Part shown: positions 29,960 to 31,500 of the stretch, one piece after another
Layout of the letters: each line of letters starts with the position of its first letter
How positions within the stretch are numbered: position 1 is the first letter of the stretch
Assembly (NCBI GenBank): GCA_001986395.2
Contig: MQVO02000012.1
Span: 558,001-622,000, forward strand
From: Irpex lacteus
Lineage: Eukaryota; Basidiomycota; Agaricomycetes; Polyporales; Irpicaceae
Direction: 5' to 3'
DNA length: 64,000 nucleotides
Notes under the pieces: model-generated
Told to the model about the DNA's origin: nothing
What the model saw: the letters and a program-made list of their open reading frames with translations, nothing else
The model's database searches: none
Made by a program: the position numbers and the translations under genes

Positions 29960-31500
29960 ATGATCTGTGCAAAGCAGGTCTTCCGCTGCTTCAAATGGGT
30001 TGAGCGTGCGGGTGACGCGATCACAGGCGCAGCGGGCCCTGTCTTCATTTTCCTCGCCGTATGCTTAATATCGACGGGTGTCGTATGTTTCTGTGCGTAG
30101 CTTCCTTGTTATCCTTCATTTCCACTACGGAGTGCTGACAAGGCTTCGGTGTAGTCGACGTGGTACAGCCTACGTTGCCCTGGCCGTGGCTCACGACACC
30201 TTTATGTCTCCTCGTTGTGGTCAACCTCTTTGCGCATTATTACCTTGTGTGCACTGTCTCCCCAGGGTTTGTGGATGATTCTCCGAGTGTTCGAGGTTCT
30301 GAAAGGGGGTGGATTTGGGCGAAGAAGCGGGACGGGAGTCGGAGGCAGCTGACGGGCGTGCAGTGGTCGGAACATCTGAACATGACGAAGGCGACGACGT
30401 CGAAGTGTAAGAGGTGTGGTGTTATGAGGCCAGAGGTGCGCTACTTGTTCACTCTTTTGCGACATGGGGCGTGCTAAGATGATTGTTTGTTGAGCGTAGA
30501 GAGCACACCATTGTCGAATATGCAAACGTTGCGTGCTGAAGTACGATCACCACTGTCCAGTATGTCGTCTATTACAGTCGGCGGCGACGTGTACGCTGAC
30601 TCGACCAAGTGTAAGGTGTTTAGCCTTGCTTCGTGGTATATGCGTGTACTCAAGCGGCATTTGGTTTGTAGGGGTGAACCAGTGCATTGGACTGCATAAT
30701 GAAAGACATTTCGTGCTTTTCTTGTAAGCTTTTTCTCGTCCGTGTAGCCCTGTCTCTGCTCTGCTAATTGTAATACATGCGATACAGAGTAAATCTCAGT
30801 ATAGCCTCACTCGTGTACTCATGGTGCGGCTGGAAACACGTTTTATCTGCGTTGGGATGGTACGCTGTACGCCACTCTCCTTTACCCCTGGAAAATTTAT
30901 TCTAATCCTCTCTTGTCCATGTCTCTCTAGGACGACTGGAATCATCACGTACCAGAGATAGCATTCCTGCTCATCTACATCCTCTCTGTCGTACTGTTCC
31001 TTGCGGTGACCATTATGGCAAGCTACCACATTTATGGGATTGCCTGTGGAGAAACGACGGTCGAGTCGCAAGATCACGAATATTATCGAAGGATGGCTAG
31101 AGGCAGAGGCGAAGTGAGTTTCCTCGCCCATTTGTTCATGCTATGTGGGCTTAGTGCTGATTGTATATAGGATTTTGTGAACTCTTACGATCTAGGGTAC
31201 GCTGCGCCGATGAGAACGAGAAGACCTTTCAGTCTAACGCGTGTCTTATAGGAAACTAAATAATCTTAGACTCTTCTTCAATATCGGCCCTAACGGCTAG
31301 TACGTCTCCCTTCTGCTTTCATCACCACAAACAAGATTAACCCCCGAGAACTCTCACATAGCCCAACATACACACTCCTCCTCCCATTACGCACCGAGCC
31401 CTACACAGACGGCTACTCCTGGGCTCGCAAACAAGGCCTACAAAGTCACCCAGGCGTAAGAGCAGGAGATGAACTCACAGACGAAGAGGATTTATCATGA
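29960..31500 (+). CDS. DHHC-type protein S-acyltransferase (palmitoyltransferase)
   Basis: Ten predicted exons (29960-30092, 30155-30435, 30500-30559, 30610 alone, 30672-30723, 30788-30866, 30931-31113, 31171-31196, 31252-31299, 31362-31500) give 333 aa. Two transmembrane helices (about 28-45 and 52-75, the second ending HYYLVCTVSPGF) precede the cysteine-rich domain CKRCGVMRPERAHHCRICKR, then DHHC at 154-157. Two more helices follow (VNLSIASLVYSW and FLLIYILSVVLFLAVTIM). A TTVE motif stands after the last helix, then SYDLG, NLRLFFNIGPNG and LLLPLRTEPYTDG. It transfers palmitate to cysteines of membrane proteins, the catalytic Cys being that of DHHC. It resembles the ZDHHC16/Aph2 group. The only model found that restores DHHCPWVNQC in frame uses a one-base exon at 30610. 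Confidence 0.9.
30560..30671 (+). other. Two introns flanking a single-nucleotide exon in the DHHC gene
   Basis: Between the codon for Pro158 and the GG of the next coding block lie 112 bases. They split into intron A (30560-30609, GTATGT to CCAAG, with a CTGAC branch site about 15 bases from its end), a single T at 30610, and intron B (30611-30671, GTAAGG to TTTGTAG). Both lengths match the 50-65 nt introns of this window. Joining T to GG makes TGG (Trp159), so DHHCP-W-VNQC reads correctly. Treated as one 112-nt intron, the message would read CCA GGG TGA, a stop. Confidence 0.75.

Follow-up and report, generated by a model that had tools for sequence, protein, structure and literature searches.

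How can a gene for a DHHC palmitoyltransferase encode the Trp that follows His-His-Cys-Pro in its catalytic motif, when the reading frame is interrupted at that very codon by 112 nt that cannot be removed in one piece? This question is raised by a locus of Irpex lacteus, contained in the stretch of 64,000 nt that was analysed (the window; contig MQVO02000012.1, positions 558,001 to 622,000), which belongs to a fungal assembly of 44.3 Mb. The explanation favored here, to which we give a probability of about 90%, is a joint one: a single T would be retained constitutively as an exon between two short GT-AG introns, these introns would be removed sequentially, and the arrangement would be an old one, held in place by the motif that it interrupts.

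The gene and its divided tryptophan codon

The DHHC gene spans positions 29960 to 31500 of the forward strand. Spliced translation, Pfam and homology support a model of ten coding exons on this strand, namely 29960-30092, 30155-30435, 30500-30559, 30610, 30672-30723, 30788-30866, 30931-31113, 31171-31196, 31252-31299 and 31362-31500, the last one including the stop codon, which ends at 31500. Their sum is 1002 nt with the stop, in frame, as had been calculated in the preliminary description of this DNA, and encodes a protein of 333 residues. This protein matches the Pfam family PF01529 with 111.3 bits (cut-off 28.7), so that it has the cysteine-rich domain with the DHHC motif, and its sequence also matches human DHHC20, whose structure is solved (E 6.9e-23). 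The nearest named proteins among the matches listed come from Irpex rosettiformis (84% identity across the full window protein) and from I. lacteus itself (97% identity, with 72% of the query covered). The nine introns of the model all have GT-AG ends and measure 50-64 nt, and apart from the joint at the Trp codon the reading frame is intact. The DNA of the gene matches a single place in its own genome assembly. Downstream of it, and facing it, the reverse strand of the window holds an open frame of 488 residues with C2H2 zinc-finger matches (PF00096; 32910-34376).

Exon 3 (30500-30559) ends in CACCACTGTCCA, which encodes His-His-Cys-Pro, and exon 5 (30672-30723) starts with GG GTG AAC CAG TGC, the remainder of the Trp codon followed by Val-Asn-Gln-Cys. 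The interval between them is divided in the model by exon 4, a single T at 30610 with which the Trp codon TGG begins. Intron 3 (30560-30609, 50 nt, phase 0) reads GTATGT...CCAAG and harbors a branch-like CTGAC at 30596-30600, whose A lies 10 nt from the intron end; intron 4 (30611-30671, 61 nt, phase 1) reads GTAAGG...TTGTAG and harbors a branch-like CTCAA at 30649-30653, with its A 19 nt from the end. The T is thus enclosed by an upstream AG and a downstream GT, CCAAG/T/GTAAGG, at 30605-30616. The GTATGT donor, the CCAAG/T/GTAAGG and the frame resumed with GG GTG AAC CAG TGC had been read from the letters in the preliminary description, and each is present in the sequence.

In size and signals the introns on either side of the T are ordinary for this genome, with the AAG acceptor as the less common type. 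The other seven introns of the gene measure 55-64 nt, against 50 and 61 nt for these two; all seven have donors of the form GTRNG, and introns 3 and 4 start with GTATG and GTAAG. A strict signal search over 264 kb of the genome yielded 48 candidate introns with strong signals, of which a control rate predicts about 15 by chance. This search lists none of the nine introns of the DHHC gene and was used for lengths and acceptor types only. In the 48 candidates, about a third of which may be false, the length quartiles are 53, 58 and 63 nt, and four of the 48, with the same share of possible false ones, have AAG acceptors, which makes the CCAAG of intron 3 uncommon. A self-trained intron caller also recovered none of the nine introns, and its percentiles were set aside.

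Division of this codon is not a general property of the DHHC genes of this genome, since a second one (L003, in G000:C37, around 252414) keeps CAT TGC CCT TGG in one piece and has an intron immediately upstream of it.

The one-base exon is the only canonical route to HHCPWVNQC. All deletions of 21 nt or more within the region were evaluated, with any end dinucleotides, and no single one gives this sequence: the base after CCA is G, the base preceding the downstream exon is G, and neither is the T that is needed. Excision of the whole 112 nt leads to HHCPG and then to a stop, which bears out the earlier statement on one-piece removal, and with the T retained the product is HHCPWVNQC. When two GT-AG introns of at least 40 nt each are allowed, seven solutions are in frame, and DHHCPWVNQC results from just one of them, that with exon T at 30610; the restoration of the Trp of DHHCPW by T and GG, as originally proposed, is therefore unique. 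This Trp is invariant in 22 aligned sequences, a set chosen for having Trp. In 264 kb, both strands considered, AGTGT occurs at 9.9e-4 per base and AGTGT[AG]NG at 1.7e-4 per base, so that about 0.02 and 0.004 occurrences, respectively, are expected by chance over the about 23 positions at which neither intron falls below 44 nt.

The frame could also be kept without any micro-exon, by a single intron of 108 nt (30564-30671, forward strand, GTCGTC...TTGTAG), which would give HHCPVWVNQC with one extra Val. The preliminary description had foreseen such a donor, and it exists, at position 30564 and not at 30563. The equivalent choice, a GT at +5 of the donor, is made in 66 of 132 annotated models among the homologues listed. 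However, GTCGTC has neither the +3 purine nor the +5 G common to all nine introns of the model, its calculated pairing to U1 is weak (-1.9 kcal/mol, against -2.9 for the donor at 30560 and -6.2 for that at 30611), the extra Val lowers the Pfam score from 111.3 to 103.2 bits (a loss of 8.1), and none of the 25 transcript-like homologues listed has an insertion at this position. The single intron is thus very unlikely. A further donor, the GT at 30555, was rejected: its product, HHWVNQC, loses the catalytic Cys-Pro, and it is the choice of some public models (P0079, P0087, P0113).

The joint in homologous proteins

Three protein searches, from which the best 120 of 320, of 643 and of 277 matches were taken, provided 157 distinct proteins that were aligned with the window protein. 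They fall into two classes by source: 132 genome models, which have an NCBI genome record, and 25 transcript-like proteins, which are present only on jgi, lgn or ena contigs. The latter are taken to derive from cDNA. Seventeen of their contigs do not reach the 1541 nt that the gene spans in the genome and so cannot accommodate its introns; the other eight are longer, and all 25 are probably cDNA-like, since an unbroken frame of 311-383 residues on a contig that has no annotation requires DNA free of introns.

The two classes differ sharply at the joint. Among the matches listed, all 25 transcript-like proteins read HHCPW, then V, I or L, and NQC (P0126, P0140, P0145, P0150 and P0152 being those beyond the first 20), while HHCPW is found in four of the 132 genome models (P0011, P0049, P0144 and P0149) and damage at or around the joint in the other 128 (e.g., P0001, P0002, P0008 and P0009). 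The four HHCPW genome models carry the names Taiwanofungus, Tricholomella, Mycena latifolia and Flagelloscypha; in them the one-base exon may have been placed, or one or both introns lost. Together with the uniqueness of the solution in the DNA, these counts uphold the interpretation of the T as an exon.

The ways in which genome models fail are informative. Among the matches listed, 66 of the 132 read HHCPV[RWG], where the intron is begun at a GT inside the donor (GTNNGT, at +5), a choice that adds one residue and restores the frame. Another 36 contain longer inserts that end in R, W or G, which is what a codon made of any base and an initial GG of the next exon would encode. HHCPG appears in 15 models, and wider damage, such as HHWINQC or HHCPCVG, in 11. 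The first three classes all need one base (modulo three) from within the interval to keep the frame. The public I. lacteus model itself reads HHCPGVNQC, which is also the product of a one-base slip of a single intron in the window DNA. As judged from the protein sequences, this is a systematic annotation fault: in 128 of the 132 public models listed, a residue next to the catalytic Cys-Pro is wrong or absent.

Insertions just after the Pro of the joint are present in 105 of 132 genome models and in none of the 25 transcript-like proteins. At other places where insertions are frequent (residues 90, 105-118 and 200-202, and the C-terminus) they are frequent in both classes, like natural length variation. 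A milder effect accompanies intron 2 (30436-30499): inserted residues follow the Pro of RPER (residue 137) in 13 of 132 genome models, against none of the 25 transcript-like proteins, and are seen in homologues such as P0025, P0030 and P0031.

A FastTree tree was built without the junction; 57 of its 155 inner branches have good support, and P0157 and P0151, being long, are of unsure placement. Of 18 independent pairs that differ in source, an average of 17.7 have the W on the transcript-like side and none has it the other way round (sign test over the 18 pairs, median p 7.6e-6). Close relatives can differ in this way: P0069 (W) is 86% identical to a Lactarius pseudohatsudake model with VG, P0060 (W) 82% to a Collybiopsis luxurians model with VR, P0150 (W) 81% to a Ceratobasidium model with G, and P0140 (W) 75% to a Serendipita vermifera model with VSPLLWW. 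For the transcript-like P0006, P0007 and P0118 the nearest genome model reads W. In the aligned sequences, therefore, the split between W and damage goes with the source of the data and not with phylogeny. Such a split fits a one-base exon conserved through the Agaricomycetes and probably older, and it argues against an assembly error, a pseudogene and the extra Val.

A base lost in sequencing or assembly, or a pseudogene, would explain the interruption with no micro-exon at all. Errors of this sort usually betray themselves by a frame problem confined to one joint, and the assembly offers a single copy for comparison. Nevertheless, the same joint fails in 128 of the 132 independent genome models listed, from two fungal classes, the transcript-like proteins are intact there, and the remainder of the gene is an intact frame of 333 residues with canonical introns. 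Since the failure recurs so widely, this explanation is rejected, and the chance left to it is close to negligible.

The preliminary description had been concerned with a single gene. What it saw there holds, but the pattern is wider, extending across the Agaricomycetes and to one model of the Dacrymycetes. Damaged models are found in Irpex (Polyporales, Agaricomycetes), Serendipita (Sebacinales), Auricularia (Auriculariales) and Cantharellus (Cantharellales), and, going by genus names, presumably also in the Agaricales, Boletales, Russulales, Hymenochaetales, Gloeophyllales and Gomphales. The Dacrymycetes are represented by one gene model, that of Dacryopinax, which is damaged as well (HHCPLGINQC); Tremellomycetes and other subphyla are absent from the matches listed. 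On these protein sequences, the one-base exon is probably conserved through the Agaricomycetes, with an older origin that includes the Dacrymycetes. We infer from the protein models that relatives have the same DNA anatomy; scans of collections of viral contigs and genome contigs gave no match to genomic DNA of a relative.

Proposed removal of the two introns

From the sequence of the locus we infer that the one-base exon is spliced in Irpex itself. With introns 3 and 4 excised, the T would join GG to encode the Trp of the catalytic motif DHHCPW. Recognition of each intron as a unit, by intron definition, is probable, and the anatomy fits this: both have the usual size, a GTRNG donor, a branch-like CTNA motif and an AG. 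A single base separates the AG of intron 3 from the GT of intron 4, so that the acceptor of the former and the 5' splice site of the latter could hardly be occupied together; this suggests that the introns are removed sequentially, whichever of them goes first. Removal of intron 3 first would leave a usable junction, ...CCAT/GTAAGG, and removal of intron 4 first would leave another, ...CCAAG/TGGGTG. In a U1 duplex calculation the donor at 30611 pairs best of the nine (-6.2 kcal/mol) and that at 30560 has -2.9, so that, if anything, intron 4 first would be favored, although this is not decisive. The idea that removal of intron 3 improves the pairing of the donor of intron 4 was dropped, since the calculated value is -6.2 before and -5.2 after. 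A cDNA that reads CCATGGGTG would support the one-base exon, and one that reads CCAGTATGGGTG would speak against it.

It could be argued that the interval is instead a composite intron removed in two steps, stwintron-like or recursive, and not two independent introns. Introns 3 and 4 abut almost directly, a zero-length AG/GT site is present at 30615/30616, and nested introns are well documented in fungi, as the available parts of that literature indicate. A stwintron, however, needs complete removal, and removing all 112 nt of this interval gives a stop; the zero-length solutions yield HHWVNQC, HHCPVWVNQC or HHCPVCRVN, none of them with HHCPW. The T must stay, and what stays is an exon by definition. 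The composite intron is thus exceedingly unlikely, and sequential removal with the T kept is possible.

Two introns flanking a retained T, the reading that we prefer, would belong to a known and very rare kind, and the taxonomic breadth of this case is its unusual part. The remark in the preliminary description that one-base exons have been reported in plants is correct, with APC11 and VPS55 as examples (PMC4674806, PMC8831610); its remark that no fungal case had been described no longer holds, as a one-base exon in CYP621A of Fusarium was published in February 2026, and is claimed by its authors, in the available text, to be the first in a fungal gene (PMC12940212). According to the same text, the two cases are alike in several respects: both concern a fungal nuclear gene with the exon within a conserved protein motif (PKG in CYP621A), the intervening total is about that of two introns, public models are wrong at the joint, and skipping breaks the frame (PMC12940212). 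They differ in that CYP621A is the case of an Ascomycete, in one P450 subfamily of one genus, its base is G, the second of a Gly codon, and RNA reads have demonstrated it, whereas in Irpex, a basidiomycete, the gene encodes a DHHC acyltransferase, the base is the T that starts a Trp codon, the evidence consists of transcript-like proteins of relatives, and the range is apparently class-wide and beyond (PMC12940212, available text). APC11 and VPS55 of land plants resemble the Irpex gene as constitutive one-base exons in conserved genes, widely kept and missing from reference annotations, as far as the accessible parts of the reports go (PMC4674806, PMC8831610). In Arabidopsis APC11, as described there, the exon lies 333 nt into an interval of 422 nt, compared with two introns of about 55 nt in Irpex, and it was tested with reporter constructs, while the Irpex exon is known from sequence (PMC4674806).

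Fungal stwintrons, in the descriptions available, share with this locus two adjacent introns whose sites overlap in space and which need consecutive reactions; they differ in retaining nothing between their parts in the mRNA, where the Irpex gene retains one base. Phanerochaete belongs to the Polyporales, the same order as Irpex. Its P450 genes likewise have very short exons beside introns of 45-55 bp, the shortest in the accessible description being 6 bp, versus 1 nt in the Irpex gene (PMC1184071). In the open-licence literature of PubMed Central, no one-base exon was found for a DHHC gene or for any basidiomycete, and that of Irpex would be the first in the Basidiomycota as far as such papers show.

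Age and significance

The arrangement may have persisted because residues can be neither added to nor lost from the motif that it interrupts. It is somewhat probable, taking the parts jointly, that the one-base exon was fixed before the split of Agaricomycetes and Dacrymycetes and has been kept since, that it is among the oldest and most widely kept outside plants, and that it sets a splicing-dependent limit on the enzyme. Its age is well supported at the level of protein sequences. The limit is speculation: as introns 3 and 4 compete for a few shared bases and faulty removal leads to an immediate stop, the joint could restrict the level of the enzyme.

Uncorrected, the annotation fault would mislead the expression, modelling or alignment of this DHHC enzyme, and the pattern suggests a cheap screen for joints that are broken in genome models and consistent in transcript assemblies. 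Should the DNA of relatives agree, one fungal class, and probably a second, would have kept a one-base exon for its whole existence, at a position where any slip costs a catalytic residue or the frame. It would then be a natural system in which to study how an exon that is too small for binding is defined by the spliceosome; many species could serve as replicates, and laboratory mushrooms that are easy to culture could serve as hosts.
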